The notes beneath the pieces are model-generated. The model saw nothing but the letters and a program-made list of their open reading frames with translations. It did not search any database and was not told the DNA's origin. This document shows positions 8,000-30,304 of a DNA stretch of 33,282 nucleotides, piece by piece; position 1 is the first letter of the stretch, and the number at the start of each line of letters is the position of its first letter. The translations under genes were made by a program, and so were the position numbers. The DNA is from Haliea sp. GTDB lineage: Bacteria > Pseudomonadota > Gammaproteobacteria > Pseudomonadales > Halieaceae. The stretch lies in assembly GCA_009937575.1 (NCBI GenBank), contig JAACFI010000008.1, positions 1 through 33,282 of the forward strand. Reading direction: 5' to 3'.

Positions 8000-8042
8000 T
8001 TATGTAGTTGCACTATCTATAATATGTAGTATAATTACATAT
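8000..8042. promoter_or_regulatory. Tandem operator pair A (shared TetR-type palindrome)
   Basis: The strong copy at 8022-8042 reads ATATGTA, 7 nt, TACATAT, with both arms matching. A weaker copy at 8000-8020 reads TTATGTA, 7 nt, TATCTAT, and is offset by exactly 22 bp. The pair sits in the divergent gap between the OYE and acyl-CoA dehydrogenase genes and overlaps promoter elements of both. The same motif recurs at 11549, 17769, 24754 and 30261. Confidence 0.8.
8008..8035 (+). promoter_or_regulatory. Possible promoter for the acyl-CoA dehydrogenase gene
   Basis: A perfect -10 TATAAT lies at 8030-8035, inside the strong operator copy. A weak -35 TTGCAC lies 16 nt upstream. It would give a leader of roughly 73 nt to the ATG at 8115. 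The -35 match is only partial, so this is less sure than the minus-strand promoter. Confidence 0.45.
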
Positions 8043-8047
8043 GTCAA
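8019..8047 (-). promoter_or_regulatory. Sigma70 promoter for the OYE operon
   Basis: On the minus strand a perfect -35 TTGACA (8047-8042) is followed by a 17-nt spacer and -10 TATTAT (8024-8019). Operator copy 8022-8042 fills the spacer and touches both boxes, so a bound repressor would block RNA polymerase. The expected start near 8012 gives a leader of about 26 nt before the GTG at 7986. Confidence 0.75.
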
Positions 8048-8114
8048 GGGGGAGGGGCGGTTTTTGATCCGCGTTGACATCGGCGTAATGAATATTCAGT
8101 CAGGAGTATGGCAC

Positions 8115-9314
8115 ATGGGTAACCCCGAGACTTTCTATAAGGAGGCTCTGGCCTGGCTGGAGGCGAACTGCCCTCAATCCCAGCGCACCCCGGCCAGCCG
8201 GGAGGAACTGGTATATGGCGGCAATAAATGTGTCTTTCCCTCGGATGATGCGAAAACCTGGCTCGAACTCATGGCCGCCCGGGGCTGGACCGTGCCCACC
8301 TGGCCGAAAGAATATGGCGGTGCCGGGCTCTCGTCCGAGGAGGCCGGGCTTCTGCAAAAGGCCATGCGCAAGCTGGGCTGCCGCAGCCCATTGATCGGTC
8401 ATGGATTGTGGATGCTGGGCCCGGCGCTACTGGAGTACGGAACCCGCGAGCAGAAATTGCAGCACCTTCCTGGAATCGCCCGGGGAGAGATACGGTGGTG
8501 CCAGGGGTACAGTGAACCGGGCGCCGGCTCAGACCTGGCCAGTCTTCGCTGCCGCTGTGAAGACAAGGGCGACCACTTTCTGGTTAACGGGCAGAAGAGT
8601 TGGACCACTGACGGTAATCACGCTGACTGGATATTTGTGCTGGTGCGCACCGACTTCGACAATCCCGCCAAGCAGGCGGGAATCAGCTTTCTGCTGATTG
8701 ACCTGGAATCCGCGGGGGTAGAGGTGAAGCCCTGCACCCTGCTGGACGGCAACGAGGATTTCTGTGACACATTTTTTGACAATGTTGTGGTGCCCAGGGA
8801 AAACCTGGTAGGTGATATCAATGAGGGCTGGGCCATCGCCAAATCGCTACTGGTGCATGAGCGGACCATGATGTCGCAAATACAGGAATATATACCCAGG
8901 CTGCCCCATAGCGTGGTGGAGTACGCCAGGAACTACGTGGGCCTCGACGAAAATGGACAACTGGCCGACGATGCCCTGCGCGGCCAGTTGACCAGCCACC
9001 TGATGAATGCCCATGCGATGCAGCTGGCGCAACAGCGGGCCTTCGAAGAGAGACGTGCGGGGGTGCTGGACAAGCGATCCACGCTCTACTTCAAAGCCTG
9101 GGCGACTGAAGAAGACCAGCGAAAGGACGAATTGTTACTGGCCATGTTGGGGAGTGCCGCGTTGGGCTGGGAAGGAGATGGTTTCAGTGACGACGAGTTG
9201 CAGGTGACCCGTCAGTTCCTGACCAACAAGGCGCTTACCATCGGTGGCGGTACCACCGAGGTGCAATTGAATCTGATGGCCAGGGCGCTCGGTTTGCCCG
9301 GCCGGGAAGTGTAA
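8115..9314 (+). CDS. Acyl-CoA dehydrogenase
   Basis: The 399-residue protein has the acyl-CoA dehydrogenase layout: an N-terminal helical domain, the middle beta-domain signature YSEPGAGSD at residues 132-140 followed by QKSWTT, and a C-terminal helical domain ending in IGGGTTEVQ at residues 376-384. These flavoenzymes introduce a C2-C3 double bond into acyl-CoA thioesters. The position of the medium-chain enzyme's catalytic Glu in the C-terminal loop reads Gly here, as in many FadE-type enzymes that act on branched or polycyclic substrates, where the base is placed elsewhere. The frame is open to 7956, but AGGAG 8 nt before the ATG at 8115 fits the family start. The gene is divergent from the OYE operon and 22 nt before the secreted propeller-like gene. 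Confidence 0.93.
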   Translation: MGNPETFYKEALAWLEANCPQSQRTPASREELVYGGNKCVFPSDDAKTWLELMAARGWTVPTWPKEYGGAGLSSEEAGLLQKAMRKLGCRSPLIGHGLWMLGPALLEYGTREQKLQHLPGIARGEIRWCQGYSEPGAGSDLASLRCRCEDKGDHFLVNGQKSWTTDGNHADWIFVLVRTDFDNPAKQAGISFLLIDLESAGVEVKPCTLLDGNEDFCDTFFDNVVVPRENLVGDINEGWAIAKSLLVHERTMMSQIQEYIPRLPHSVVEYARNYVGLDENGQLADDALRGQLTSHLMNAHAMQLAQQRAFEERRAGVLDKRSTLYFKAWATEEDQRKDELLLAMLGSAALGWEGDGFSDDELQVTRQFLTNKALTIGGGTTEVQLNLMARALGLPGREV

Positions 9315-9336
9315 TAGAAGAGAAGGAATCGAATCG

Positions 9337-10971
9337 ATGAATATACAGAACATTTCTTGCGGCCTGGCCGCCACGGCCACCCTGGCCCTGGCGCTGCCCG
9401 CGCTGGCTGCCGGGGTTCCCGTGAACCACTGGCTGGCCGACAGTGCCTATCCGGTGTCTCACCACAATGCGGGCCAAACGGACTCCACCCCGGTAGACGG
9501 TCCCGATGTGGGCAAGCGCCTGTCCGTGGATGAGGTCCAGTCTGTGCCTCTGCTTTGGTCCTCGGCGCCTACCTTCAAGAACGTCAACGGTGAGCGTATC
9601 GTTATTGCCTCCAATCCCGCGGGCATTATCAAGGTTAAGGCTACCGGCGAGGACTTCACCCTGGTCTCTAATGTGCCCTACCCGGGGCGTGAAGACGTCC
9701 ACGCGAAAATTACTGACGAAAAGCTGCGCGAGACCATGCGCAGCATCGACGAAAAACGCCGTGGCAAGCAGGATCTCAGGCTGCTTATTAATTCCCTGTG
9801 GATGTTTGTCAAATTCGAAATCAATTTCCGCACTTTCCCCTCCGGGGCTTATTCGGTGATCGATAGTGACGGCTATCACTACACCAATTTCGATCGTCAG
9901 TTTCTGGTGAAGTCTTTCGACGGCAACGACGCTGACGCGCCTCTCGTGCCAGTGAAGCACGTCAATATTGTTGACCAATTGCCACCCGAGGACGCGGAGG
10001 AGGTGAGTTACCTGCTGGGTATCACCATGACCTACGACGGTCATATCGTGGCGGCCGCAGGCGGCGCGGTGATCCTGGTGAATCGCCAGCTGGAGGTAGT
10101 GGATTACGCGATGTTTCCGGGTGAAAAGGTGGAAAACTCCATTGCTGTCGATGAGGACAACGGCATCTACGTGGTGACTTCGAAAAACATGCACAAGCTG
10201 GTTTGGACGGGCTCCAGTCTCTCCAGGGAGGCGGCCGATGGCGCATGGTCATCACCCTATGAGGTGATGGCGGAGGGGGAGGCCCTGAAGATGGGTGCCG
10301 CGTCCCACGGTTCAGGTACAACGCCTTCCCTGTTGGGCTTCGGTGCCGATGAGGACCGCTTGGTGGTCATTTCCGACGGCAGTCCGGATGGCGCAAACCT
10401 GGTGGCATTCTGGCGCGACGAGATCCCCGCAGACTTCAAGCAGAAGCCAGGGACGCTGTCTCGCCGTATCGCTGACCAGATTCCCATGGGCATCAGTGCC
10501 ACCACCATCGAGGCCTCGCCGGTGACCCATGACAACGGTGTGATGGTTATCAATACGACCTATCCGGAGCCGGGACCCATTCCCGGCGACCTGATCAGTA
10601 ATGCCTTCCTGGCGGGAACAACCCGTCCGGCGCCTCTGGGACTCAAGAAATTCGACTGGCTGCCGGATGAGGATCGCTTTGTGGAGGCCTGGGGCATGCC
10701 GGATATCGACAATACCGACTGGATGCCACCGGCCGTCTCCACCAGCAACGGCCTGGTGTACATTGCCAACCGTCGCAGCGATAACTATGAGTACCTGGCG
10801 GCGGACTGGGAGACAGGCGAGGTGAAGGCGGTGTGGCCATTCCCGGATGACAGTGTGCTTTACAACAACTGGGGCGGTATTACCGTATTCCTGGAAGATG
10901 GAGACCTGCTGCTGGGCGGTTTCTTCGCTATTAAACGATACGATATAGGTGGATTACGCAGTAGGGAGTAA
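9337..10971 (+). CDS. Secreted beta-propeller-like protein, paralogue of the 1-1604 lipoprotein
   Basis: This 544-residue protein starts with a Sec signal peptide: a hydrophobic core at about residues 8-24 and an A-L-A|A-type cleavage near residue 25, with no lipobox. The ATG at 9337 is preceded by AAGGA. It should be exported to the periplasm. The body shares spaced blocks with the partial lipoprotein at 1-1604: TYDGHIV, KNMHKLVW, ADGAW, SGTTPSLLGFG and FWRDEIP. These look like propeller blades or repeats. I do not recognise a characterised family and assign no activity; sensor, lactonase-like or binding roles are all possible. Its last 18 nt overlap the 3' end of TetR1, which is convergent. 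It follows the acyl-CoA dehydrogenase by 22 nt and probably shares its transcript. Confidence 0.9.
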   Translation: MNIQNISCGLAATATLALALPALAAGVPVNHWLADSAYPVSHHNAGQTDSTPVDGPDVGKRLSVDEVQSVPLLWSSAPTFKNVNGERIVIASNPAGIIKVKATGEDFTLVSNVPYPGREDVHAKITDEKLRETMRSIDEKRRGKQDLRLLINSLWMFVKFEINFRTFPSGAYSVIDSDGYHYTNFDRQFLVKSFDGNDADAPLVPVKHVNIVDQLPPEDAEEVSYLLGITMTYDGHIVAAAGGAVILVNRQLEVVDYAMFPGEKVENSIAVDEDNGIYVVTSKNMHKLVWTGSSLSREAADGAWSSPYEVMAEGEALKMGAASHGSGTTPSLLGFGADEDRLVVISDGSPDGANLVAFWRDEIPADFKQKPGTLSRRIADQIPMGISATTIEASPVTHDNGVMVINTTYPEPGPIPGDLISNAFLAGTTRPAPLGLKKFDWLPDEDRFVEAWGMPDIDNTDWMPPAVSTSNGLVYIANRRSDNYEYLAADWETGEVKAVWPFPDDSVLYNNWGGITVFLEDGDLLLGGFFAIKRYDIGGLRSRE

Positions 10972-11520
10972 TCTTGAAATAAGCCCAGCGGCCTCACAGT
11001 GCGCGCAGATGTCGTGTTCGTGCTCTATTACGGCGATTGCTGCTTCGGTGATTGCTGCCCGTGCAATCCGGTCACACATCTCAGTCTGCTCGTGACCTGC
11101 TGCTTGCAGTCCGGGGTCGTTTCTCGCCAGCGCGCCGGACCAGGGAAAGTGTTGTGAACTGGACCAGTGCGCCCTGCCGAGTATGTTGGGGCCATCCTCC
11201 AGAGTGATGCGGCGGAAAGCCTGGTCTTCGCACAATTTCAGGAACGCTTCCCATGCGAGGACAGATGACCCGGAATTCAGGGCCTCCAGCGCCTGAAGCT
11301 CCATCAACCCATGTACCGCGGTAAATAACCCGAGTTTGCTCCCGAAATGGTAGTAAATGGGCCTGATGGTCATGTCGCAGGACTCTGCGATCTCCTCCAG
11401 TGAAGTCGACGCATATCCCTGTTGCCCGAACAGGTGGCAGGCGGCGGCCAACAGCGTCTCGCGAGTTTCCTCCCGACGCTCGGCCTGGGTGCGTTTTCCA
11501 TCTTTTTTCCGCTCACTCAT
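10954..11520 (-). CDS. TetR-family regulator 1 (candidate regulon repressor)
   Basis: The protein has 188 residues. A basic N-terminal arm (KRTQAERR) leads into a TetR helix-turn-helix at about residues 39-60, with recognition segment TIRPIYYHFGSK. The C-terminal ligand-binding domain carries FRRITLEDGPNILGR, a block also found in TetR2 as FRRVVLIDGPNILGR. The ATG at 11520 has only a weak purine-rich site upstream. The gene is divergent from the WES/DGAT operon, and two operator copies lie in the gap, so it probably represses itself and that operon. The ligand-binding part departs from TetR2 after the shared block, and the inducer may therefore differ. Its 3' end overlaps the preceding convergent gene by 18 nt. 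Confidence 0.92.
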   Translation of the reverse strand: MSERKKDGKRTQAERREETRETLLAAACHLFGQQGYASTSLEEIAESCDMTIRPIYYHFGSKLGLFTAVHGLMELQALEALNSGSSVLAWEAFLKLCEDQAFRRITLEDGPNILGRAHWSSSQHFPWSGALARNDPGLQAAGHEQTEMCDRIARAAITEAAIAVIEHEHDICAHCEAAGLISRLLPTA

Positions 11521-11543: not shown

Positions 11544-11572
11544 TTGACATATGTAATTATGCTGCATATCAT
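11544..11572 (+). promoter_or_regulatory. Sigma70 promoter for the WES/acyl-CoA synthetase operon
   Basis: A perfect -35 TTGACA (11544-11549), a 17-nt spacer and -10 TATCAT (11567-11572) are seen. The first operator copy occupies the spacer. The expected start near 11579 gives a leader of about 66 nt before the TTG at 11645. Confidence 0.75.
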
Positions 11573-11591: not shown

Positions 11592-11644
11592 TATGCAGCG
11601 GCCGGTAAATGGTTCCGGCCGGGTCAGCGACAGGAGGAGATACC

Positions 11645-13180
11645 TTGATCAAAGCACTGAGCCCCGCGGATGCGATTTTCTTCTTTACCGAGTCACCGAC
11701 GCAGCACCAGCACACCTTAGGCGTCATCGTGCTGGACCCCAGTACGGCACCCGGTGTGTGTGACGTCGGTACCCTGATTGACCTGTCGGAGAGCCTCGTG
11801 GACGAGGCGCCCGGCTATCGCCTGAAATTCGTCGATTCGCCGGCGACCATGGGCGTTCCCATGCTGGCGGAAGATCCGGATTTCAATATTCACAACCATA
11901 TACGCCATGTCGCCCTGCCGCAGCCCGGGGACATGGATCAGCTACAGGACCTGGTGGCGGATATTGCCAGCCGGCCCCTGAACCACGAGATTCCCCTGTG
12001 GGAAAACTGGTTCGTGTCCGGCCTGGAAGGTGGCTTGATCGCCATCGTCAGCAAGTCGCACCACAGCCTGTCGGACGGGGTGAACGGCGCCGAAACCATG
12101 GCAAAAATGTTCGACCTGGAGCCCGATCCGCCGAAGCGTGAAGAAAAAAAGGTGCAGAATAGTGTGAAGCACGCCAGGACGCCCTCGACCCTGGAAATCG
12201 TGCGCGAGGCTATCGAGGCGCGCCGCAAGAGCCCAAGTGCGGCTGAAATGGCCACCAAGGCGGTAAAGGGGTTGATGCGCCGCAGGGAGGTAAGCAACCA
12301 GTGTGATAACGCTGAACTGCTGCCGGGCAACACATTGAGGGCGCCGAAGGTTTTCTTCAATGGTCAAATCACGTCCCGGCGCAGTGTGGCCCTTGGGGCG
12401 CTGCCGCTGAATGATGTCAAGACAGTGAAGAACGCCTTCGGTGTGTCAGTGAACGACGCGATACTGGCAGTGGCAGCGATAGCGGTGAGGCGGTACCTGG
12501 AGCTGCATGATGATCTCCCCCAGGAAGCCCTGAGTTGCATGGTGCCTCTGAGTCTCGACCTGAATAAGGTGGGAGAAGGCGCAGACAATGGGGACGCCGC
12601 CAACCAGGTCCAGGTCATGAATGTAAAGTTCCCGGTCCAGATCGAAGACCCGGTAGAACTGATCGAGACATTGCACAAGTGTTCCAGCGCGGCGAAACAG
12701 CGCTTTAATGACACCTTCGACAATATGATGCTGACGGTAGTGGATACCCTTTCCCCCCACCTTGCGGGGCCGGCAATGTCCTTCATGACCGGGGATTTCT
12801 CTGCCCGTTTTCCAGCCAGCAACCTGGGGGTGTCCACCATTCCCGGACCGTCCTTCCCGCTCTATATGCGGGGTGCGAAAGTCGTGGGCAACTATCCCAT
12901 GGGGCCGATCCCCAACGGCATTGGCCTGGGTATTACCATGATGAGTTACATGGATGACCTGTATTTCACAGTGCAGGGTTGCCGGGAGAAGACCCCCGAT
13001 ATCGATCGACTGGCGGAATTTATGGACGAGGCCCTCCAGGTATTGCTGAAAGCGGCGCATCGTGTTGCCGCGCCTGAGAAAAAAGCGAAAAGACCCGCCC
13101 GCAAAATCTCGGCGAAACCCCGGGCGAAATCGAAAGCCAAAACCCGGGCCAAGACCCGCAAGACCGCCGCCAGGCGTTGA
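11645..13180 (+). CDS. Wax ester synthase/diacylglycerol acyltransferase (WES/DGAT) 1
   Basis: The protein has 511 residues. The family active site HHSLSDG (HHxxxDG) is at residues 139-145, preceded by the PLW motif (IPLWENW) and followed by the ND motif in SVNDAILAV. WES/DGAT enzymes transfer an acyl group from acyl-CoA to a fatty alcohol or diacylglycerol, and some accept other alcohols; they usually act at the inner membrane or on lipid droplets. The start is a TTG with a strong AGGAGGAG site 5-7 nt upstream; an ORF from 11609 would start before that site. The last roughly 35 residues form an unusual Lys/Arg/Ala-rich tail with AKxK-like repeats, absent from the two paralogues here. It is the first gene of a four-gene operon. 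Confidence 0.93.
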   Translation: MIKALSPADAIFFFTESPTQHQHTLGVIVLDPSTAPGVCDVGTLIDLSESLVDEAPGYRLKFVDSPATMGVPMLAEDPDFNIHNHIRHVALPQPGDMDQLQDLVADIASRPLNHEIPLWENWFVSGLEGGLIAIVSKSHHSLSDGVNGAETMAKMFDLEPDPPKREEKKVQNSVKHARTPSTLEIVREAIEARRKSPSAAEMATKAVKGLMRRREVSNQCDNAELLPGNTLRAPKVFFNGQITSRRSVALGALPLNDVKTVKNAFGVSVNDAILAVAAIAVRRYLELHDDLPQEALSCMVPLSLDLNKVGEGADNGDAANQVQVMNVKFPVQIEDPVELIETLHKCSSAAKQRFNDTFDNMMLTVVDTLSPHLAGPAMSFMTGDFSARFPASNLGVSTIPGPSFPLYMRGAKVVGNYPMGPIPNGIGLGITMMSYMDDLYFTVQGCREKTPDIDRLAEFMDEALQVLLKAAHRVAAPEKKAKRPARKISAKPRAKSKAKTRAKTRKTAARR

Positions 13181-13224
13181 TAATTCAGCCCGATACAGTG
13201 GCGCAGGAAAACAGGAAAACCGAT

Positions 13225-14844
13225 ATGACGACTTACAATCTGGCTGATCTCTTCGAACAGGTGGTAGACAAGGTTCCCGCCTGGGAGGCCATTGTCACCG
13301 AGAATACGCGCCTCAACTATGCGGAACTGGAAGCCCGCGCAAATCAACTGGCGCACTTCCTGCAAAGCCGGGGAGTCGGCCAGGGAGACCACATCGGCCT
13401 GCATCTCAAGAACGACAACGAGTACATAGAGGGTATGCTGGCGGCTTTCAAATTACGCGCGGTGCCAGTCAATATCAATTACAACTACGTGGAAGGCGAG
13501 CTGAATTATGTCTACAACGACGCTGACCTGGTGGCCCTGCTGGTTCATCGTTCCTACATAGGACGGTCGGCCTCGGTAGTGTCGGATGTTCCCAGCCTGC
13601 ACACCCAGATTGTGGTCAATGACGCCAGCGAGGAAGCTACACCGGAGGGTTGGTTCGAATACGAGGACGCTTTATCGAGTGCTTCCAGTGATCGGGATTT
13701 CGGGCCGCGCAGTTCGGACGACGTCTACATCATCTATACCGGTGGCACCACGGGTATGCCCAAGGGCGTCATGTGGCGTCACGAGGATATCTTTTTTGCC
13801 TCCCTGGGCGGCGGGGATCCGGATCGTACCCAGGGCCCCATCAGCAGGCCGGAACAATTGAGTGAACGTATCGGTGAATTCCAGATGGCTACCCTGGGAG
13901 CACCGCCCTTCATGCACGCGGCAGCCCAGTGGACAGCCCTGTCGCAGATGTATTCCGGCGGCAAACTGGTAATACCGGCCCACGGCAACTTTGACGTGAA
14001 GGCTATTCTGGACGCTTGCGCTGAGGAAAAAGTGATAGCCCTGACATTGGTGGGCGACGCCATGGCGACACCGATCGCGGATGCCCTGGAAGCCTCCCCC
14101 GATAGCTGGGACCTGTCCGGCCTCTTTGTCATCGCATCCGGTGGGGCGGTGTTGTCCCCGGCGGTGAAAGACCGCCTGTTGGAACTGTTGCCCGGGAAAA
14201 TGATCGTCGACGGCCTGGGTTCCTCCGAAACCGGCGTTATGGGTAACAAGACCAGCGGTCTGGGTGGAGAAGAGAGCGCAGAGCCGCGTTTCACAGTCGG
14301 TGAGTTTGTCCAGGTACTGGACGACAATATGCAACCGGTAGCGGCGGGTTCAGGTATCGTGGGCAAACTCGCTCGCGGCGGCCACGTGCCGCTGGGCTAC
14401 TACAACGCGCCGGAAAAATCCGCGGAAACTTTCGTCGAAGTGGATGGCAAGCGCTGGTCCTTGCCTGGCGACCTGGCCATGGTGGAGGCGGACAATACCG
14501 TGCTGTTGCTGGGTCGCGGTTCCACCAGTATCAACAGCGGTGGCGAGAAAATCTTCCCCGAGGAAGTCGAATCCGCCCTCAAGGCGCACCCTGTCGTCTA
14601 CGACGCTGTCGTGGTCGGTGTTCCAGACGAGCGCTGGGGCCAGGCGGTGACCGCCGTTTGCCAGTTTCGCGAAGGACAGGCGGTGTCCTACGAAGACCTC
14701 AAGGAATTCTGCCGCACACAGGTGGCGGCCTACAAGATTCCGCGGCTGCTGTTGCACTGCGAACAGATCAAACGTTCACCGGCGGGCAAGGCCGATTACC
14801 CCTGGGCCAGGAACTTCGCCCTGGAATCCCTGGGACTGAATTAG
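13225..14844 (+). CDS. Acyl-CoA synthetase (AMP-forming, FadD-like)
   Basis: This 539-residue adenylate-forming enzyme shows the family motifs in order: the phosphate-binding loop YTGGTTGMPKG at residues 171-181, SSETG at 333-337, a GD pair at 415-416, and GEKIFPEEVE at 440-449. The adenylation Lys522 is in SPAGK near the C-terminus. It activates a carboxylic acid to acyl-CoA with ATP. The sequence YTGGTTGMPKGVMWRHED recalls, from memory, mycobacterial FadD17/FadD19-type synthetases linked to steroid side chains and long-chain acids. That points to a bulky or long-chain substrate but does not prove it. I choose the ATG at 13225, preceded by an AGGAAA stretch, rather than an upstream TTG at 13177. 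It lies between two WES/DGAT genes, with gaps of 44 and 20 nt. Confidence 0.94.
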   Translation: MTTYNLADLFEQVVDKVPAWEAIVTENTRLNYAELEARANQLAHFLQSRGVGQGDHIGLHLKNDNEYIEGMLAAFKLRAVPVNINYNYVEGELNYVYNDADLVALLVHRSYIGRSASVVSDVPSLHTQIVVNDASEEATPEGWFEYEDALSSASSDRDFGPRSSDDVYIIYTGGTTGMPKGVMWRHEDIFFASLGGGDPDRTQGPISRPEQLSERIGEFQMATLGAPPFMHAAAQWTALSQMYSGGKLVIPAHGNFDVKAILDACAEEKVIALTLVGDAMATPIADALEASPDSWDLSGLFVIASGGAVLSPAVKDRLLELLPGKMIVDGLGSSETGVMGNKTSGLGGEESAEPRFTVGEFVQVLDDNMQPVAAGSGIVGKLARGGHVPLGYYNAPEKSAETFVEVDGKRWSLPGDLAMVEADNTVLLLGRGSTSINSGGEKIFPEEVESALKAHPVVYDAVVVGVPDERWGQAVTAVCQFREGQAVSYEDLKEFCRTQVAAYKIPRLLLHCEQIKRSPAGKADYPWARNFALESLGLN

Positions 14845-14864
14845 CTTCGCGGCAGGATTTGACG

Positions 14865-16262
14865 ATGCAGCGTTTGAAAGGTGGCGATGCGGTATACCTC
14901 TACCAGGAAACACCCTCTGCACCGCAGCATACGCTGAAGGTCTCGATCATGCGGCCCCTGCACCCACACGCTGACAAAGAGCGGGCCAAGCAGTTCTTCC
15001 TGGCCACCATTCACCGGGTTCCCGCACTGCGCTGGCGTATTGTTCCAGTGCCATTCGGTTTGCATCACCCGTTGGCGATCGAGGATCCGGAGTTCGACCT
15101 GGACAACCACTTCAACCATGTTGCGCTGCCGGGAGCCGGCACCATGCGCGAACTCGACGAGATGGTGGCCCAGATCGCCAGCAATCCCCTGGACCGCAAT
15201 CGCCCTCTGTGGGAAATGTGGATGATAGAGGGCCTGGAGGATGGGCGGCTTGCATTCGTTCTCAAGGCACATCACGCCATCGCCGATGGCATGGCCTCGG
15301 TTAATCTCTTTACCCGGATGCTCAGCCCGATTTCTCCGGATGAGAGCGTGCCGGAATGGCGCCCACGGGGGTTGCCCGGTGCAAGACGCCTCGTACTGGG
15401 CGCAATCAGGGATCACCTGCGCTACGACGCTTTGAAATTTCCTGAATTCCTGCGCACGGTGCTGGCCCGGCAGAAGTCGGCTCGCATTCACCGCAAGGCT
15501 TCGCAGGTGCCCGTTTTCGATCCAATGGAGGATATTATTCCCCCCAGCCGCTTCAACGGTGCGCTTTCCCCGCGCCGCGGGTTTGCGACACGGAGCCTGC
15601 CCCTGGCGGACGTTCGTGCGCTGAAATCACAGTTGGAGGGAACGATCAACGACGTGATCCTGGCCCTGGTCGCCGGTGGGCTGCGGCGTTACCTGCAGGA
15701 CGCAGGAGCGCCAGCCGAACAGCCCCTGATCACCGTGATTCCTGTCTCGGCGGATGAGCCCGGTACTGAGCGCCTGTTCGGCAACAATATCGCCATCATG
15801 GGGAGCCGGCTTCACGCCGACATCGATGATCCCCTGGAGCGATTCCGGGCCACCAGGGAATCCACACTGGCAGCCAAGCAGTTCCTCGAGGTCTACGGCC
15901 GTAATACCCTGCCGTCCATCACCCACTACCTGCTCCCCGCCCTGGTGCGTATTCCCCGCCAGCGCGAGTACCGCCTGAAACTGGCCGACGAGCCCGGCTA
16001 CAAGTATCCCTGCCAGGTGGCGGTTTCCAATGTTCCCGGTCCGCGAGAGAGGCTGGAGACAGAACAGGCGGTGTTGGAGTCGTTGTATTCTGTGGGTCCA
16101 CTGCAGGAGGGCAATGGCCTGAACATCACGGTCTGGAGCTATTGCGACCAACTGAATTTCAGCGTGATCTGTTGTCGTAAGCGAGTGCCTGACCCGGATC
16201 GTATTGCCACCGCGGTGGAAACCGAACTGGAAGTGCTGAAGGAGTGTGTCGTTGCCCACTGA
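14865..16262 (+). CDS. Wax ester synthase/diacylglycerol acyltransferase (WES/DGAT) 2
   Basis: The protein has 465 residues. HHAIADG (HHxxxDG) is at residues 136-142, with the PLW motif at 114-116 and the ND motif in TINDVILAL. The N-terminus MQRLKGGDAVYLY is nearly the same as that of WES/DGAT 3 (MQRLNGSDAIFLY), which fixes the start at 14865, with AGGA 7 nt upstream; the frame itself is open from 14658 inside the synthetase gene. It catalyses acyl-CoA-dependent ester formation. The acyl-CoA could be supplied by the synthetase 20 nt upstream. The gene ends overlapping the start of the alpha/beta hydrolase gene. Confidence 0.94.
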   Translation: MQRLKGGDAVYLYQETPSAPQHTLKVSIMRPLHPHADKERAKQFFLATIHRVPALRWRIVPVPFGLHHPLAIEDPEFDLDNHFNHVALPGAGTMRELDEMVAQIASNPLDRNRPLWEMWMIEGLEDGRLAFVLKAHHAIADGMASVNLFTRMLSPISPDESVPEWRPRGLPGARRLVLGAIRDHLRYDALKFPEFLRTVLARQKSARIHRKASQVPVFDPMEDIIPPSRFNGALSPRRGFATRSLPLADVRALKSQLEGTINDVILALVAGGLRRYLQDAGAPAEQPLITVIPVSADEPGTERLFGNNIAIMGSRLHADIDDPLERFRATRESTLAAKQFLEVYGRNTLPSITHYLLPALVRIPRQREYRLKLADEPGYKYPCQVAVSNVPGPRERLETEQAVLESLYSVGPLQEGNGLNITVWSYCDQLNFSVICCRKRVPDPDRIATAVETELEVLKECVVAH

Positions 16263-17103
16263 ACCCCTGTATTCCGTCAACGATCGGAGTGACCAGGCAG
16301 AAAATCAGCGCATCCAGGTAGCTGGATGCTGCACGGCCGAGCTTGCCGCTGAGGTCATAGGCGAGGGCGTTTCCTATCTTTGGAGCCACGCATTACTGGG
16401 CAGCATGGCCCAGGACCTCGACGGAGGCGTATTGGCCTGGCGCGACCTGATCGATCTCTGCCGGGTGATACGCTTCGACGCTCGTGGTCACGGCCTCTCG
16501 GGGACTTCGGGTAAGCCGCAAGACTACCGCTGGGACAACCAGGCGCGTAGCCTGTGGGAAGTTGCCGACCATTTTACCGACGACAGGATTATCCTGGGAG
16601 GGGCCTCCATGGGCAGCGCCGTGTCATTGCACGCGGCCTGTCAACGGCCGGACCGCGTAAAAGGCCTGGTACTGGTGATACCGCCCCGGGCCTGGGAGTG
16701 GCGCGAGGGCAAGGCCGGCGGCTACCGAATCACCGCTAATGTGGTGAAGTATACCCGTGGACTGCCGTTCCGGCTGCTGGGCCGGGTGCCTTTCAGACAA
16801 AGCGAGAGCTTTCGAAGGAACGCCCGCGGGGTCATGGCGCGGGACCTGGCGCAGGTGAGGCCTGAGGGCGTGGTTGGAGCCATGCGCGGAGCGGCCCTGT
16901 CAGACTTCCCGGCCCGGGAGGCGCTGGCCAGGTTGGAAATACCGGCCCTGATTCTTGCGTGGCCGGATGATTCCACCCATCCCCTGGTGGTGGCCGAGGA
17001 GTTGAATCGCATTTTGCCGAATAGCCGGCTGGAAGTGGCCCGCCGGGAAAGTGATCCCTATGCGTGGTCAGGCAGGGTGCGGGATTTCATTCGTTCCCTG
17101 TAA
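16252..17103 (+). CDS. Alpha/beta hydrolase, possibly with an altered catalytic triad
   Basis: The protein has about 283 residues of the alpha/beta hydrolase fold. The oxyanion-loop strand (LWSHALLGS) comes first, then the FDARGHGLS turn, then the nucleophile elbow G-A-S-M-G with Ser119. Asp in WPDDS is a plausible acid residue. The C-terminal position where the catalytic His normally sits in a GHxxxxE-type motif reads RRESDPYAW, with no His. A His occurs earlier, in STHP. Either a different His serves or the enzyme is impaired. Start choice: AAGGAG at 16239-16244 is 7 nt from the TTG at 16252 but touches the GTG at 16246, so the TTG fits better. It is the last gene of the operon and overlaps the WES/DGAT 2 stop. 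Confidence 0.88.
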   Translation: MPTEPLYSVNDRSDQAENQRIQVAGCCTAELAAEVIGEGVSYLWSHALLGSMAQDLDGGVLAWRDLIDLCRVIRFDARGHGLSGTSGKPQDYRWDNQARSLWEVADHFTDDRIILGGASMGSAVSLHAACQRPDRVKGLVLVIPPRAWEWREGKAGGYRITANVVKYTRGLPFRLLGRVPFRQSESFRRNARGVMARDLAQVRPEGVVGAMRGAALSDFPAREALARLEIPALILAWPDDSTHPLVVAEELNRILPNSRLEVARRESDPYAWSGRVRDFIRSL

Positions 17104-17145: not shown

Positions 17146-17748
17146 TCAGCCGGAGTAGTCCCCGAGGCGGGCGAACATCGTCATGATGAGCTGTTCCGCC
17201 TCACGCTTCGCCATCGGTATATCATCCGCTTCCGCCACCATCAGGGCTGCCTCGGCCATGGCGCCCATCATCACCCGGTTCATCAGGGCAAAACGGAACT
17301 TTTTCGCTGCTCCCCGCGTTGGCTGGGTCGCTCCGACCAGCTCGCTGGCCCGCAGGTAGATCGTGCTCTGCGCCCACTGCTGCCGGCCAAGGATGTTGGG
17401 GCCGTCTATCAGGACGACCCGGCGGAATCCGGGATCGTCGCAGAGATCGAGGAAGGCGCGCCAGCTGACCCTTAGAGCTTTTTCCGGGTCTTCACCCATG
17501 TCTGAGACAAAGGTATCCAGAATGCGCGCACTCATATGTTCGTTGACGGCGGCAAACAGGGACTTCTTGTTTCCGAAGTAGTGGTACACTGGACGGATGG
17601 TGAGGCCGCAATCCGCTGAAATCTCCTCGAGGGAGGTATCCGCGTAGCCCTTCTCTCCGAAAAGGCGGCAGGCGCTGTCGAGCACTGCCTGCCTGGATTG
17701 TGCCCGCCTCTCGGCCTGTGTCCTTCGGGGTTTTTCAGTTTTCCCCAC
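17146..17748 (-). CDS. TetR-family regulator 2 (paralogue of TetR1)
   Basis: This 200-residue TetR protein has the arm RRTQAERR and a helix-turn-helix with the segment TIRPVYHYFGNK, nearly the same as TetR1. The shared block FRRVVLIDGPNILGR in the ligand domain also supports a duplication. The frame is open upstream to 17820, but that would put the first 24 residues across the operator and promoter. The GTG at 17748 has AGGAG 7 nt upstream and leaves a leader of about 37 nt, so I take it as the start. An operator copy spans the predicted transcription start, indicating autoregulation or cross-regulation by TetR1. It is convergent with the WES/synthetase operon, with 42 nt between the stops. 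Confidence 0.93.
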   Translation of the reverse strand: MGKTEKPRRTQAERRAQSRQAVLDSACRLFGEKGYADTSLEEISADCGLTIRPVYHYFGNKKSLFAAVNEHMSARILDTFVSDMGEDPEKALRVSWRAFLDLCDDPGFRRVVLIDGPNILGRQQWAQSTIYLRASELVGATQPTRGAAKKFRFALMNRVMMGAMAEAALMVAEADDIPMAKREAEQLIMTMFARLGDYSG

Positions 17749-19306: not shown

Positions 19307-19391
19307 ATTCAAGCCTCGTTTAACGATTTGGTGATTACAGTTTGTCTAGTCGGTTGCGTTGAAAATATCAGCCATTCAGGTTACGGCCCGG

Positions 19392-21077: not shown

Positions 21078-21149
21078 TTTTCTTGCCTTGGTCTTAATCA
21101 ATAATCGGGGTTTCAATTGCTGTATCTGGTTTCTGTCTACCTGACCCGG

Positions 21150-23543
21150 TCAGGCTGCCTGTGCCACGGTCTGGGTAACCTTGTCAGTCTTGGCTTTCGA
21201 CCTGATCAGGAAATGCGACAGGGCGGGTAGCAGCCACAGGGCGCATAGCATGTTGACCAGGAACATGAAGGCCAGAAGCAGGCCCATGTCCGCCTGGAAC
21301 TTGATGGGTGACAGGACCCAGGTGCAGACGCCGATGGCCAGTGTGATACCGGTAAATGCGACTGCTTTGCCGGTTGCCTCGAGCGCGCGCCGATAGGCCT
21401 CCTGGGTGCTGACCCCTTCACGCACGTGCATGATCAGGTTGCTGAATATGTAGAACCCGTAGTCGACCCCCACCCCAACACCGAGCGCGACGACAGGCAG
21501 GGTCGCCACCTTGATGCCGATACCCAGGTGGGCCATCAGCGCCTGGCACAGGGCAGAGGTGAGCCCCAGCGGTATGACGATACACAGGATGGCGGTGACC
21601 GAGCGGAAGGTGAGACCGACCACCAGGATAACCACCGCGTAGACGTATACCAGAATCTTGGCCTGGGCGTCCTCGATCACCTGGTTGGTGGCGGCCTCGA
21701 TGCCCCCGTTTCCTGCTGCCAGGCGGAAGTGAATCTCGTGGCTGTCGTATTGGCCTGCGAATTCCTCGATAGCCGCTACTACACGCTCCAGGGTTTCCGC
21801 CTTGTGATCATCGAGGAACGCGACCACCGGTGCGAGGCTGCAGTCGCGGTTGGCGAGAACGGGTGGCAGGGCCCTTCTGGTATTGTTCAGGATCTGCTGG
21901 TTGTTGGATATATCCATCCATTTCAGGCTGCCCTCGTTCTGCGCCATGATGACGCGCTTGGCAATGGCCGAGAGGGAGGAAACAGACTGGACGCCGGGCA
22001 CGTTCTCCAGCATCCACGTGAAGCGATCGATCAACTCCACGTTGTCGTAAAGCAGGCATTCGCCATCGCCGGTTTCGACCAGGGTAATCAGCGTGTCGGT
22101 ACTGACTGTGAACTTGTCAGTGATATACAGCACATCCAGGTTGTAAGTGGAATCCGGGTGAAGTTCCGGCGCTCCGGGGTCGAGGTCACCGATTTTCAGG
22201 TTACCGGAACCCATGTAGCCCAGGGTGAACAGAGCGGCGGCAACCACAACCGAGACGGTCGCTACTTTCGGGTGCGCACTGTAGCTGAGCACGCGCCAGA
22301 TTTTTGAGCCACCGTATTCGTAGTCGTCATCCCGATGGCGGGCGGGTTTCATGCCCGTATAGGACAGCAATACCGGCAGGAGGACCAGGTTGGTCAGCAC
22401 GATGACAGCCACTCCGATGCCTGCCGCTGTGCCCAGGTCCCTGATAACCTCGATTTCGATAACCATCAGGGTGATGAAGCCAAAGGCGTCGGTGATAAGG
22501 GCAGTGACGCCGACGATGTACAGGGAACGGAAGGCCAGCCTTGCCGCCTTGAGTTTTGAATATCCATGGGACAGCTGGTTTGCCATCGCATTGACCATCT
22601 GCACGCCGTGGCTGACGCCGATGGCCAGTACCAGGAACGGAACAAGAATTGAGTAGGCGTTGAGGCCGTAGCCGAAAACCGTCAGCAGGCCCAGTTGCCA
22701 GACGACCGCGATCATGGAGCACAGCAGTGGGGCCACTGCGCCGCGTGGGCAGCGGCAGTATAACAACAACAGCAGGAAGGTAATTGCGATCGTGATAAGC
22801 GCGAATACCAGGATCGCGCCTATGCCCTCGAGCATTTCGCCGACCACCTTGCCGAATCCGATGATATGAATTCTTACATTCTCGTTCTCGTACTTCTGCC
22901 GTATCTCCTTTTCCAGTTTGCGTGAAAATTCCAGGTAGTTCATCGGTTCGCCGGTGGTGGGATCGCGGTCGACCAGGGACACCTGCACCATGGCTGCGCT
23001 GAAGTCATTGGATACCAGGCGGCCTACCTGTCCGGAACGCAGGATGTTGTTCTTCAGGGTTTCCAGGGTTGCCTCAGTACCGTTGTAGCCGGAGATAACC
23101 TGTCCCCCCTCGAAGCCCTTGGGAGTAACCTGCATCCATCTCACGCTGGGCGCCCAGATACTCTTGAGGCTGTTGCGGTTTACTCCCGGGAAATAGAATA
23201 TTTCGTCGTTGACCTGGCGCAGGGTTTCCAGGAAATCGACGGTGAGGATGTCGCCGTTTACCGCCTCTACCGCTATCTGTATGCTGCTGCCGCTGGCACC
23301 GAGGTCGGCGCGGTGCTCTTTCATCGACACGATAAACGGGTGATCAGCGGGTATCATTTTTTCAAAGCTGGCGTCGGGGCTGAGATTTGTCATCTGGTAG
23401 CCAAGGTAGGCAGTCACTGCAAGAAACAGCAGGATGACGATTCCTCTGTTCCTGAATATCAGGCGCTCGAGAAATCGCTCTTCCTGTTCCAGAGCGTAAT
23501 CGGTGACAACGCTTTCAGTGGTGGCATTCTGGTTATCGGACAT
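21150..23543 (-). CDS. MMPL/RND superfamily transporter
   Basis: This 797-residue inner-membrane protein has the two-half RND layout. A first membrane segment lies at about residues 33-52, then a large periplasmic loop, then a cluster of five helices from about residue 235 to 395 that includes GVSHGVQMVNAMA. A second lone helix, a second periplasmic loop, and a last cluster from about residue 640 to 785 with LGVGVGVDYGFYIFS follow. These proteins use the proton gradient to move lipids, hopanoids or other hydrophobic molecules out of or within the envelope. With no membrane-fusion or TolC-type partner nearby, and with DUF1302/DUF1329 beside it, an HpnN/MMPL-like lipid trafficking role is more likely than drug efflux. 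Transport direction is unknown. It starts 33 nt after the YCF48-like gene. Confidence 0.94.
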   Translation of the reverse strand: MSDNQNATTESVVTDYALEQEERFLERLIFRNRGIVILLFLAVTAYLGYQMTNLSPDASFEKMIPADHPFIVSMKEHRADLGASGSSIQIAVEAVNGDILTVDFLETLRQVNDEIFYFPGVNRNSLKSIWAPSVRWMQVTPKGFEGGQVISGYNGTEATLETLKNNILRSGQVGRLVSNDFSAAMVQVSLVDRDPTTGEPMNYLEFSRKLEKEIRQKYENENVRIHIIGFGKVVGEMLEGIGAILVFALITIAITFLLLLLYCRCPRGAVAPLLCSMIAVVWQLGLLTVFGYGLNAYSILVPFLVLAIGVSHGVQMVNAMANQLSHGYSKLKAARLAFRSLYIVGVTALITDAFGFITLMVIEIEVIRDLGTAAGIGVAVIVLTNLVLLPVLLSYTGMKPARHRDDDYEYGGSKIWRVLSYSAHPKVATVSVVVAAALFTLGYMGSGNLKIGDLDPGAPELHPDSTYNLDVLYITDKFTVSTDTLITLVETGDGECLLYDNVELIDRFTWMLENVPGVQSVSSLSAIAKRVIMAQNEGSLKWMDISNNQQILNNTRRALPPVLANRDCSLAPVVAFLDDHKAETLERVVAAIEEFAGQYDSHEIHFRLAAGNGGIEAATNQVIEDAQAKILVYVYAVVILVVGLTFRSVTAILCIVIPLGLTSALCQALMAHLGIGIKVATLPVVALGVGVGVDYGFYIFSNLIMHVREGVSTQEAYRRALEATGKAVAFTGITLAIGVCTWVLSPIKFQADMGLLLAFMFLVNMLCALWLLPALSHFLIRSKAKTDKVTQTVAQAA

Positions 23544-23576
23544 CAGCCGGCTCCAATGAATTACTTATAGTTCGGT

Positions 23577-24740
23577 TCAGTTCAGGTTTATCAGGCGCGC
23601 GCCGCCAAGCCCGACCGCAATGAAATTGTCGGATTCCAGGTGCAGCAGGGTACTGTGATTCATGCGGTTAGCCTGGGTCCGGGCCTGTATCGCCCCATCG
23701 GCGCTGTCGATCAGGAGAATTACGCCCGCCGGCCCGGCCAACGCGGTCCGGCCATCGGAGGTGACTGTCGCGCCCGCAAAGGTCGCCTCTATTGGGCTTT
23801 CGATCGAAGTCCAGGTGTCGCCGAGGTCTTGTGACTGGAACAGCGCGCTGCCGATGCCGTAGGCCGTTATCACCTGGTTGGTCTCGTCGTAGACGATGCC
23901 GAAAAACGTGTCAGGGTATCCGGATTCCAGTTGCTCCCAACTCTCGCCCTTGTCCAGTGACCGGAAAAGGATGCCCCCTTCACCCGCCAGGAAGACTTCC
24001 CCACGGCTTGATCCGGTAACCCCGTTGAGGTGGAAACCTTCAGGGGTCAGCACCAGGTGGGCCTTGTTCTCCCATGTCTTGCCGCCATCGCGGGTCTCCA
24101 CCAGGCGACCGAAGGCACCGACCGCCCAGCCGTTATCGCTGTCCATAAACCACACATCGTGCAGGTTGGTGGGAATCGTCGGTTCTTCCACCAGTATTTG
24201 CGCATCCTCAAAGGCAAACAGGGCATCCTCCAGTTCCAGGTCACGGTCCGGGTCCGGGTTGGCCTCCAACTCCGCTGACAGCGCCTCGTAAGCCGCCTCC
24301 GTGCTTACCAGGTTCTCTTGATTGGCCTGCTGCTGGAATTTCGTGCCATCCAGCTGGCGTATCCAGGTCTCGCCGCCATCGGTCGTATGAAAGACCATGC
24401 TCTGGTGGCCCACGGCCCAACCGAATTTGTCGTCCACGAAAGAAACCCCGGTGAGCATGCGGGTGAATGGCATTTTCCCCTGGTGCCAGTGAGTACCCTC
24501 ATCGTCCGAATAAAGCACGTGGCCCCTTTCGCCCACCGCGACAAGGCGGGAACCCGCCCTGTCAATGTCGACCAGGGTCGAGGTCGAAGCCCTGGGGGCG
24601 ATCGTGGCGTATTCGACGACATCACTGGAATCGGCCGTTGCGCTCACGGCACAGATTCCGGTCAAAAGGGGCAGGGCTAGAAGCGCGCAAAACCGTGCTA
24701 TTCGCGTAGCGGTCACTTCAGAAACAGAGGCGTAGGTCAC
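23577..24740 (-). CDS. YCF48-like/BNR-repeat exported protein
   Basis: The 387-residue protein has an N-terminal signal peptide (hydrophobic core about residues 17-33) and five Asp-box-type turns: DDEGTHW, TDGGETW, RDGGKTW, LDKGESW and QDLGDTW. They mark the blades of a YCF48/BNR-type beta-propeller. An acidic insert of about 60 residues lies between the second and third box. In photosynthetic organisms the related YCF48 (Hcf136) helps assemble photosystem II. In non-photosynthetic proteobacteria these proteins accompany MMPL/DUF1302/DUF1329 genes and probably act as periplasmic accessory factors. The GTG at 24740 has AGGA 6 nt upstream and a predicted leader of about 26 nt. It is the first gene of the operon behind operator pair E. 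Confidence 0.92.
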   Translation of the reverse strand: MTYASVSEVTATRIARFCALLALPLLTGICAVSATADSSDVVEYATIAPRASTSTLVDIDRAGSRLVAVGERGHVLYSDDEGTHWHQGKMPFTRMLTGVSFVDDKFGWAVGHQSMVFHTTDGGETWIRQLDGTKFQQQANQENLVSTEAAYEALSAELEANPDPDRDLELEDALFAFEDAQILVEEPTIPTNLHDVWFMDSDNGWAVGAFGRLVETRDGGKTWENKAHLVLTPEGFHLNGVTGSSRGEVFLAGEGGILFRSLDKGESWEQLESGYPDTFFGIVYDETNQVITAYGIGSALFQSQDLGDTWTSIESPIEATFAGATVTSDGRTALAGPAGVILLIDSADGAIQARTQANRMNHSTLLHLESDNFIAVGLGGARLINLN

Positions 24741-24753: not shown

Positions 24754-24796
24754 ATATGTAGTAACGATACAAATGATATGCAGTTACATTACATAA
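24754..24796. promoter_or_regulatory. Tandem operator pair E
   Basis: Copy one at 24754-24774 reads ATATGTA, 7 nt, TACAAAT. Copy two at 24776-24796 reads ATATGCA, 7 nt, TACATAA. They are offset by 22 bp, as at the other tandem sites. They lie directly before the YCF48-like gene and overlap its promoter. Confidence 0.8.
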
Positions 24797-24801
24797 GTCA
24801 A
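24773..24801 (-). promoter_or_regulatory. Sigma70 promoter for the YCF48-MMPL-DUF1302-DUF1329 operon
   Basis: On the minus strand, -35 TTGACT (24801-24796), a 17-nt spacer and -10 TATCAT (24778-24773) are seen. The second operator copy fills the spacer and the first covers the transcription start. Confidence 0.72.
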
Positions 24802-27958: not shown

Positions 27959-27967
27959 CGCGGCACT

Positions 27968-30244
27968 CTACGCCGCTGCGCGCTTTCTTTGCTTACTTGT
28001 CTTCCCGCCGTGGGAGGCCATCCAGCGCCCCACACTGTCCAGGGAGTGGACCTGCCCCCTCCTTATTGCGTTGTACACTGTTTCGTTGACGAAACGGGTC
28101 ATGGCGGCCGTCACTTGCCGCGCCATGCTGTTGCCTTCGCCGGAGGTGGCCATGATCAACAGGTGTGGATTGAGAGGATCCATGGCCAGTTCCTCTCGTT
28201 GGCGCTTCAGCAGTACGAAACGCGCCGGCACTTCCAGATCCTGTTCCCGTGGGACGTTTTCTTTGGCCAGCCGCGTACGCAGAAGATAGTTGTGCTCCTG
28301 CCGGTGCCGGGTGGCGGATACCAGGAAATCGTCCTCGTGGATCAGGGTCATCGAGGGAATATCGTAGGCCAACAAAACATCCAGTGATTTCAGATGCCGC
28401 CGTTGGTACTCCACCGGGTCGTGCATCGACGCGTTGATTTCTTTTACCAGGCCGTAAAAAGACGCCACCCGAAGCAGTCGGCCGTTGACCAGGCGCAGGA
28501 TGTAGGGATTATCCGAGTTGAGCATACGCTGTTGCACCTTGCGGTTATTCAACAGGCGACGGATCCACTGGTTAAGCCCACCAATTAAAGGGCGTGCAAA
28601 CCAACGTGTGAGGAAACGGTCCAGCCCGGTCATGCTGCGTGCACCATGCTCCAGGTCAATGTCATCGACCACACGCAATGTATTGTCCGTTTCCTTTTGA
28701 TAGACGCGTGGGAACCCGGAAAAGTCCAGGGGGGTGTTGTGGCGGTAATGCGAGATGACAGCTCTGACGTTTTCGCCCGTATTCAGTCCATCGGAGGGTG
28801 CCCAGGTGGCGAGATTGATCATGCCGCTGGCTCTCAGTGCGTCAACGAGTTGCCTGTTTTGTGGGGTGAGATCCTCATAGGTACGTATGGGGGCATCATA
28901 GTCATCCAGCAGGGACAGCAGCAGATGATCGGAGATTACGCCGCCGATGGAATGGCTGGTTACCGGTGTGGGTCGGCCCTGGCGCCAGTTCTTCAGAATG
29001 GCTTTGCGCAGCGCACGGGCGTAGTGGGGAAATATCTCGTCACTCTCCAGGTTCTTGGCATGACCGCCGCGATGCATGGCCGAAACCGTCCAGGAACTGG
29101 GCAGGCGGATCAGCAGGTTGGTGAAGCTGAACAGGCCCATGAACCCGTGCATCAACAGGGCGTGAACGCCATTCAATTCATCTCCCGCCCGGGTCTCGGC
29201 CTTGTTACGTATGGTCTCGCCCTTCTCTCTGTATTCGAATACCGTTTCGTCGAAGTGCAGGGATTGCTCGTCCGCAAAGATGTACACCTTCTCGGCAATC
29301 TCCGGCGTCTCCCGCAGCATACGCAGAGGAGTCTCCATGACGGTCTGCTCAAAGTCAGCCGATTCTTCCATTTCAAACCGGCCCAGCGCCTTCAGTTTCA
29401 GACTGCCGGACACAATCAGTGAAACGCGTTCGGCATTCGTCAGCACACCCCGATTGAGCGCCACGCGGATTGCACCGGATTCCTGACGCAGCACGGCCAC
29501 GCCGGACGGCCTTGCCGTCAGCTCGGGCGTGTAGGGTGTAAATGCGCCCAGGGTGCCGTCCTTGCCGATCCCGCTGACCACCAGGTGGAAAGACATGGAG
29601 CCTCCGAGCCTCGCTTGAATGTCCTGTTGATAGCGTTTGCTTTCCGCGCGGGCCAGCTGCAGTGCGCGGGCATGCTGGTGGCGATCCAGCGCCTGTTTCA
29701 CTCCCGCCAGATTCAACGGGTGTACCATCCTGGCAATCATTTCTTCGATGATATCGTCCAGGGAAGCGGATAGTGCCAGGCTCAATGCGCGCGCCACAAC
29801 GTTCTTACCCTTTTGACGGATCAGCACGCCGGCCAGGGGGGCGATAAAGTTTACGACCAGGGAGTTTTCCGCGCTCTCCCAGCCCGGTTCACCGGAAGAT
29901 TCCTCCAGAAGAAAGAATCGAGTGTGGCGAATCCAGTCAATGTCGCTGTGGTGATCTGTGAGCCAGGCGCGGTAGACGCTCTTGATGGTATTGCCGCCGC
30001 CGACGGCAACGGTGAAGTAGTGGCGCTTATACTGGCCCCAGGCTGCCTGGCGATCCCTTTGCAGCCAGCGCTTGTACTGGGAGCGCATGACTTCGGCGCA
30101 GTGTCTGGCGGCGCTGTCTAGATTCCCCGATATGGCCACGTGGATGCCGGACTCTTCCTGGATGAGTTCGGGAGCCTGGGCCTTGCGTCGGCGGGAATTT
30201 CCGAGCGGACTGGCCGGGAATGCCCGACTCAGGCGGTCGCCCAT
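27968..30244 (-). CDS. Fusion protein: 6-phosphogluconolactonase-like domain plus alpha/beta hydrolase
   Basis: This 758-residue protein appears to join two enzymes. Residues 75-285 resemble the 6-phosphogluconolactonase/glucosamine-6-phosphate isomerase fold: VAVGGGNT (79-86) for the phosphate loop, WIRHTRFFLLEES where the family has its DER motif, and GIGKDGTLGAF (225-235) where the family has GxDGHTASLF. The catalytic His of that motif is replaced by Thr, and DER reads EES. Residues 355 onward look like an alpha/beta hydrolase, with HGFMG (366-370) and the elbow S-H-S-I-G, nucleophile Ser432. The tail is basic. There is no signal peptide. The ATG at 30244 has GGGAG about 8 nt upstream. It stands behind operator pair F, so it probably belongs to the regulon. 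Its reaction is unknown, and I know of no described protein with this layout. Confidence 0.88.
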   Translation of the reverse strand: MGDRLSRAFPASPLGNSRRRKAQAPELIQEESGIHVAISGNLDSAARHCAEVMRSQYKRWLQRDRQAAWGQYKRHYFTVAVGGGNTIKSVYRAWLTDHHSDIDWIRHTRFFLLEESSGEPGWESAENSLVVNFIAPLAGVLIRQKGKNVVARALSLALSASLDDIIEEMIARMVHPLNLAGVKQALDRHQHARALQLARAESKRYQQDIQARLGGSMSFHLVVSGIGKDGTLGAFTPYTPELTARPSGVAVLRQESGAIRVALNRGVLTNAERVSLIVSGSLKLKALGRFEMEESADFEQTVMETPLRMLRETPEIAEKVYIFADEQSLHFDETVFEYREKGETIRNKAETRAGDELNGVHALLMHGFMGLFSFTNLLIRLPSSWTVSAMHRGGHAKNLESDEIFPHYARALRKAILKNWRQGRPTPVTSHSIGGVISDHLLLSLLDDYDAPIRTYEDLTPQNRQLVDALRASGMINLATWAPSDGLNTGENVRAVISHYRHNTPLDFSGFPRVYQKETDNTLRVVDDIDLEHGARSMTGLDRFLTRWFARPLIGGLNQWIRRLLNNRKVQQRMLNSDNPYILRLVNGRLLRVASFYGLVKEINASMHDPVEYQRRHLKSLDVLLAYDIPSMTLIHEDDFLVSATRHRQEHNYLLRTRLAKENVPREQDLEVPARFVLLKRQREELAMDPLNPHLLIMATSGEGNSMARQVTAAMTRFVNETVYNAIRRGQVHSLDSVGRWMASHGGKTSKQRKRAAA

Positions 30245-30260
30245 GGTGTGCTCCCGTAAT

Positions 30261-30304
30261 TTGTGCAGTGATGATACATAATATTATGTAGCAAGACTGC
30301 ATAT
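30261..30304. promoter_or_regulatory. Tandem operator pair F
   Basis: The strong copy at 30284-30304 reads TTATGTA, 7 nt, TGCATAT. A weaker copy at 30261-30281 reads TTGTGCA, 7 nt, TACATAA, offset by 23 bp. The facing arms of the two copies form a perfect 16-bp palindrome at 30275-30290. Confidence 0.75.

Follow-up and report, generated by a model that had tools for sequence, protein, structure and literature searches.

TetR repressors of the QacR, FadR and PsrA types bind palindromes at promoters, are often autoregulated, and act on lipid or efflux genes. EthR2 of M. tuberculosis (Rv0078; PDB 5wm9, 6c31) is the best PDB match, in both sequence (about 30% identity) and fold, of TetR2, one of the repressors described below. 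According to a previous study, the Rv0078 operator in the Rv0077c gap is a 21-bp palindrome that covers both start sites of the divergent gene pair, and two dimers bind it cooperatively (PMC6016246). The DNA contacts are made by Thr37, Thr47, Arg48, and Tyr52; Arg48 is the only base-contacting residue, it is needed for a guanine, and the R48M change abolishes binding, and a fatty-acid-like ligand was also suggested for Rv0078 (PMC6016246). A second described system is the monoterpene exporter AmeABCD of Castellaniella defragrans, which consists of a DUF1302 protein (AmeA), a DUF1329 protein (AmeB), a YCF48-like COG4447 protein (AmeC), and an RND pump of the HAE3 family (AmeD) (PMC6394551).

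The DNA analyzed here is contig JAACFI010000008.1, positions 1 to 33,282, of the Haliea sp. assembly GCA_009937575.1, and this whole stretch of 33,282 nucleotides is hereafter called the window. Its recurrent palindrome resembles the EthR2 operator in length (21 bp), symmetry, and association with a divergent tetR/enzyme gap, a likeness that concerns layout. Unlike in the EthR2 system, the partner is an OYE flavoenzyme, the sites form 22-bp tandem pairs, and five gaps are involved instead of one. We take the TetR proteins of the window to differ from QacR, FadR, and PsrA in both operator sequence and protein subfamily. The same four adjacent components as in AmeABCD are found at 17924-24740 of the window; this likeness concerns the list of components, in a different bacterium. 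The literature, in which subscription journals were thinly covered, yielded no description of a ATATGYARTNNNAYTRCATAT operator and none of an OYE/wax-ester TetR regulon.

Genes of the Window

The genes that the following sections refer to are arranged as follows.

6092..6757, minus strand, glyoxalase/VOC protein of the OYE run
6754..7986, minus strand, OYE (Oxidored_FMN), first gene of an OYE-VOC-DUF3604-TIM barrel-SDR run that reaches to about 1685, start from orthologues
8115..9314, plus strand, acyl-CoA dehydrogenase (ACAD), divergent from OYE across the sites at 8000 and 8022, start codon approximate
10954..11520, minus strand, TetR1 (TetR_N + TetR_C_41), helix T-I-R-P-I-Y-Y-H
11609..17103, plus strand, operon of WES1, acyl-CoA synthetase, WES2, and alpha/beta hydrolase
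17146..17748, minus strand, TetR2 (TetR_N + TetR_C_41), EthR2-like, recognition helix L49-T-I-R52-P-V-Y-H-Y
17924..24740, minus strand, AmeABCD-like efflux operon of YCF48, MMPL/RND pump, DUF1302, and DUF1329
27968..30244, minus strand, fusion protein ("fusion hydrolase") with a 6-phosphogluconolactonase-like domain

WES1 and WES2 are WES/DGAT enzymes, and the efflux pump was matched by the MMPL/Patched domain. Between ACAD and TetR1 (9337-10971) lies a gene whose 544-aa product has a signal-like N terminus and no match in Pfam, NCBIfam, or PDB. The fusion protein has a long remainder without Pfam match beyond its 6-phosphogluconolactonase-like part; a second copy (63%) is located on contig C105 and more relatives occur in genomes of the same genus, none of them with the operator. 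The region 30395-32235 carries DUF1214 and, after it, the gene of an unrelated TetR (TetR3, at 31603), which is of the TetR_C_6 type, unlike TetR1 and TetR2.

Putative Operator Sites

Nine copies of the 21-bp palindrome, whose fuller consensus is ATATGYARTNNNAYTRCATAT, are present in five intergenic gaps of the window, and the 7-bp spacer of the palindrome is non-random (GTARTNNNAYTRC).

8000..8020, O2 of the OYE gap (weak), 3 mismatches, 18.5 bits, kept in a second copy of the locus at L020:596
8022..8042, O1 of the OYE gap (perfect), 0 mismatches, 33.3 bits
11549..11569, O1 of the TetR1/WES1 gap, 0 mismatches, 29.8 bits
11571..11591, O2 of the TetR1/WES1 gap, 2 mismatches, 24.9 bits
17769..17789, single operator of the TetR2 gap, 0 mismatches, 28.8 bits
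24754..24774, O2 of the YCF48 promoter, 1 mismatch, 20.3 bits
24776..24796, O1 of the YCF48 promoter, 1 mismatch on the better strand, 31.4 bits
30261..30281, O2 of the fusion hydrolase promoter (weak), 3 mismatches, 23.4 bits
30284..30304, O1 of the fusion hydrolase promoter, 1 mismatch, 29.1 bits

An earlier note on this DNA had placed nine copies at these positions, all between genes; every one was recovered there with zero to three mismatches, and their intergenic placement was confirmed. The overlap of 8000-8020 with a listed OYE reading frame is an artefact of the start codon, since orthologues put the OYE start at GTG 7986. The same note had seen no site before WES/DGAT 3, the serine hydrolase, or DUF1214, which is correct for the first two; the DUF1214 gap, however, holds the pair at 30261 and 30284.

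Strand-wise matches numbered 17 in the window, against a mean of 1.26 and a largest value of 6 in shuffled windows. With a matrix derived from other genomes only, the nine sites are exactly the nine highest-scoring positions of the window (18.5-33.3 bits), and the best non-overlapping position after them reaches 0.3 bits; this matrix and one derived from the window only use separate sites, the external sites having first been located with the window consensus. Sites are paired in four gaps, with start-to-start distances of 22, 22, 22, and 23 bp, and the TetR2 gap contains one site.

Promoter Architecture

Promoters or promoter-like matches were found at the operators as follows.

8019..8047, minus strand, OYE promoter with O1 as spacer, TTGACA-17-TATTAT, 11/12 matches
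11544..11572, plus strand, WES1 promoter with O1 as spacer, TTGACA-17-TATCAT
11584-11556, minus strand, weaker TetR1 promoter-like match, overlapping both operators
17820-17792, minus strand, TetR2 promoter-like match TTGACA-17-TATGCT, operator just downstream of the -10 element
24773..24801, minus strand, YCF48 promoter with O1 as spacer, TTGACT-17-TATCAT
30281..30309, minus strand, fusion hydrolase promoter with O1 as spacer, TTGACA-17-TAATAT

Four of these promoters come close to the sigma-70 consensus and have an operator as their 17-bp spacer, in the arrangement TTGACW-[operator]-TATNAT or one like it; 22-23 bp downstream of the spacer operator comes the second one. The same register recurs in related loci, with TTGAC on the side facing OYE, and 18 of 25 successive-site spacings in these loci are exactly 22 bp; an embedded promoter with at least 9/12 matches is present in only 12 of 35 of them. 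The position of the operator inside the spacer suggests that repression is aimed at OYE, WES1-synthetase-WES2, the AmeABCD-like efflux operon, and the fusion hydrolase. Together with the pairs 22-23 bp apart, this geometry predicts that two repressor units would sit on the same face of the DNA and sterically exclude RNA polymerase.

For ACAD and DUF1214, no promoter match overlapping an operator was found in the gaps that they share with OYE and the fusion hydrolase, respectively; DUF1214 has a weak promoter-like match of its own, downstream of the 30261/30284 pair. Of the targets claimed before, OYE, WES1, YCF48, and the fusion hydrolase are thus the predicted primary ones by promoter geometry, while control of ACAD, like that of DUF1214, we infer only from gap sharing. 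The palindrome is also present at the promoters of both repressor genes (17769-17789 for TetR2; 11549 and 11571 for TetR1), suggesting that TetR2 would be autoregulated and TetR1 probably so.

Sites Elsewhere in the Genome

The 5.0-Mb draft genome (550 contigs) was searched for sites with at most three mismatches to the fuller consensus, with the reversed pattern as control. Eight sites were found in the window contig, one perfect site at C491:574, and five elsewhere; the reversed pattern also gave five matches in the genome. Since the number of other sites equals the control count, the motif is uncommon at unrelated promoters, and the idea of a local regulon survived this comparison, which the earlier note had named as one that could refute it: the sites are gathered at linked promoters and are rare elsewhere save on contig C491.

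C491 (L020, 1-8107) is an 8.1-kb contig with a second ACAD and OYE-VOC-DUF3604-TIM-SDR run, which shares 84.6% nucleotide identity with the left part of the window over 6.9 kb. It carries a double site (574 and 596) before the second OYE operon copy, and the putative regulon would thereby extend to this locus. The contig could be a true duplication, or it could belong to a co-binned related strain, the draft genome being fragmented.

Nine similar copies within 30 kb might also suggest that the palindromes are a repeat, a mobile element, or some structural feature rather than operators. However, the copies share only the palindrome and the promoter elements, a longer repeat being absent; they are registered with promoters and are conserved across the order; and a block of about 60 bp around the operators is nearly unchanged between C491 and the window, whereas the remainder of the gap has diverged and the whole locus is 84.6% identical. 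We give this explanation practically no credence, and the palindromes are treated as operators in what follows.

TetR2 Orthologues and the Motif in Related Genomes

TetR2 homologues were gathered from 394 related genomes and from named genomes (Halieaceae, Spongiibacteraceae, Cellvibrionaceae, Endozoicomonas, Zhongshania, Spongiibacter, and others). Of 36 gammaproteobacterial loci, including one whose record is titled Deltaproteobacteria, 34 have a site scoring above 14 by the window-only matrix within about 205 bp upstream of tetR, while 634 control segments reached at most 13.2. The TetR2 homologues at the motif-bearing loci are 38-70% identical. The two exceptions are L100, in which tetR and OYE have the same direction and the site stands before OYE, and L108, which has none. 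By the same matrix, the site is absent upstream of tetR in actinobacterial homologues. The motif usually lies between tetR and a divergent OYE gene; the TetR2 gene of the window, unlike most orthologues, is not adjacent to OYE. In G287, OYE and TetR are on different contigs, each with a 22-bp double site, which suggests control in trans.

Presence of the site before OYE also follows presence of the repressor. Among 29 usable OYE relatives, a site of at least 18 precedes OYE in 9 of 10 from genomes with a TetR2 orthologue and in 0 of 19 from genomes without one, although the genomes are related and the counts are not independent. The exception with TetR present, G121, has its site before a DUF3604-OYE run. 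Among the genomes that yielded no TetR2 orthologue, G064 keeps a 16.4-bit site before OYE, and G077, G073, and G007 retain 7-9-bit remnants at the usual distance (L279-L282, including G064).

The comparison of the same promoters across genomes, proposed in the earlier note, gave a divided result: the motif recurs at tetR/OYE, but not at relatives of the other targets. No site was found near the closest relatives of the efflux pump (0/29), WES1 (0/29), or the fusion hydrolase (0/15, including the second copy in the Haliea genome). In two genomes of the same genus, one of them only 71% complete, orthologues of TetR2 and OYE were not found. Hence, among the genomes compared, the wider regulon was seen only in the Haliea sp. 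lineage. From these comparisons, TetR, operator, and OYE appear to form an old unit that is widespread in the order, and the inclusion of wax-ester, efflux, and hydrolase genes would be particular, within this set of genomes, to the Haliea sp. lineage. A plasmid origin was considered and rejected, as no close TetR2 homologue was found on plasmids.

A pattern scan of 146 relatives also returned many A+T-rich palindromes without a window homologue beside them, and only loci with a TetR2 homologue were kept. Extra sites of the TTTGCAATNNNATTGCAAA type in G205, G263, G308, and G287 were left uncounted; they look like another regulon, and some are near acyl-CoA synthetases. Sites of the form TTTGCAATNNNATTGCAWAA are likewise located near acyl-CoA synthetase genes (L192:2950, L193:10457, L194:2992, L188:2989), possibly a separate lipid regulon.

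Such palindromes are common among bacterial regulators, and the similar TTTGCAATNNNATTGCAAA sites near acyl-CoA synthetase genes in other genomes might point to a global regulator outside the window as the reader of the motif, or to TetR3, with TetR1 and TetR2 as bystanders. However, the site is rare elsewhere in the Haliea genome, it tracks TetR2 orthologues and their recognition helix, it is missing or decayed in genomes that yielded no TetR2 orthologue, and TetR3 belongs to another type (TetR_C_6). This makes either alternative very improbable.

Recognition Helix and Probable Readers of the Operator

TetR1 and TetR2 pass the Pfam cut-offs for TetR_N and TetR_C_41 (57.3 and 31.5 bits for TetR1; 53.3 and 61.3 bits for TetR2). 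The structural model of TetR2 has a pLDDT of 81.7, and its top 16 Foldseek matches in PDB are all Rv0078/EthR2 chains (TM about 0.69-0.78). The equivalents of Rv0078 Thr47 and Tyr52 (T50 and Y55) are invariant, and the Thr37 position is Leu. R52 of TetR2 stands one residue later than Rv0078 Arg48, aligning with Gly49, and I51 occupies the Arg48 position. The analogy is therefore inexact, and R52 would be a putative base contact.

The recognition helix of the homologues begins T-x-[R/T]-P-[IV]-Y-H, and its residue 52 covaries with base 5 of the operator. In half-sites picked with a pattern blind to base 5, proteins with Arg52 have G5 in 87/88 and those with Thr52 have A5 in 22/22. Thr52 is found in a Luminiphilus-like and a Zhongshania-like clade, which are separate, and two changes must be placed on the tree, a number too small to support a phylogenetic sign test; L098 and L099 (T-V-T-P) group with Zhongshania. 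The Thr52 proteins with TATATA-type operators are those of L105, L107, L125-L127, L129, L131, L133, L098, and L099. Residue 51 and base 6 show a trend only (Fisher p 0.011, not phylogenetically independent). The complete match of residue 52 with base 5 is hard to explain unless a TetR2-type protein reads this base.

TetR2 is thus well supported as the putative reader of the motif. The suggestion that one or both local TetR proteins control the locus gained support, because the motif follows TetR2 orthologues, covaries with their helix, and is lost or degraded without TetR2. TetR1 has the same Ile51-Arg52 helix as TetR2 and is likely a reader as well. However, TetR1 is a fast-evolving paralogue (branch length 1.69) with no clear orthologue, and its helix reads Y-Y-H instead of Y-H-Y; the long branch and the changed order mean that it may not bind.

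TetR2 might accordingly be the sole reader, with TetR1 a degenerating or re-purposed paralogue that has other targets or none. The branch length, missing orthologue, and altered helix fit this, whereas the retained I51-R52 and the strong double operator in the TetR1 gap speak against it, and we regard it as possible but somewhat doubtful. Alternatively, TetR1 and TetR2 may act on the same operators, competing or integrating two ligands in a two-input regulon. The shared I51-R52 helix, the operators at both genes, and the widely different ligand domains are consistent with this arrangement, while TetR1 may be evolving fast simply because it is decaying; we hold this arrangement to be a real possibility, short of probable.

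Proposed Regulation and Significance

It is very probable, judging from the comparisons above, that the palindrome is the operator of a TetR_C_41-type repressor clade including TetR2 and probably TetR1, which would block embedded promoters until released by a ligand. The steps of binding and repression, the inducer, and the pathway we infer as follows. Ligand-free repressor dimers would occupy the spacer operator plus the second operator two helical turns downstream, and would block RNA polymerase at the OYE, WES1, YCF48, fusion hydrolase, and tetR promoters. The content of the regulon and the fatty-acid-like ligand suggested for Rv0078 favour as signal a hydrophobic acid, probably fatty-acid-like or terpenoid-like, or the CoA ester of such an acid, which would release the repressor. 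Release would jointly induce CoA activation, enoate reduction/oxidation, ester formation, and efflux. An ancestral unit of TetR, operator, and OYE may later have widened to wax-ester, efflux, and hydrolase genes. The full combination of a two-input switch on promoter-embedded operators, two independent Arg52 to Thr/G to A changes, and lineage capture of the wax-ester, efflux, and hydrolase operons, with the operator seen elsewhere only at tetR/OYE, is unlikely to hold in all its parts.

The analysis provides a testable operator and regulon for a widespread, apparently unstudied marine TetR clade that is related to the tuberculosis drug-target regulator EthR2. The paired changes of residue and base offer a natural test of how TetR proteins alter their DNA specificity. 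One signal would connect the OYE flavoenzymes with wax-ester synthases and an AmeABCD-like exporter, which would narrow the search for what these proteins do.
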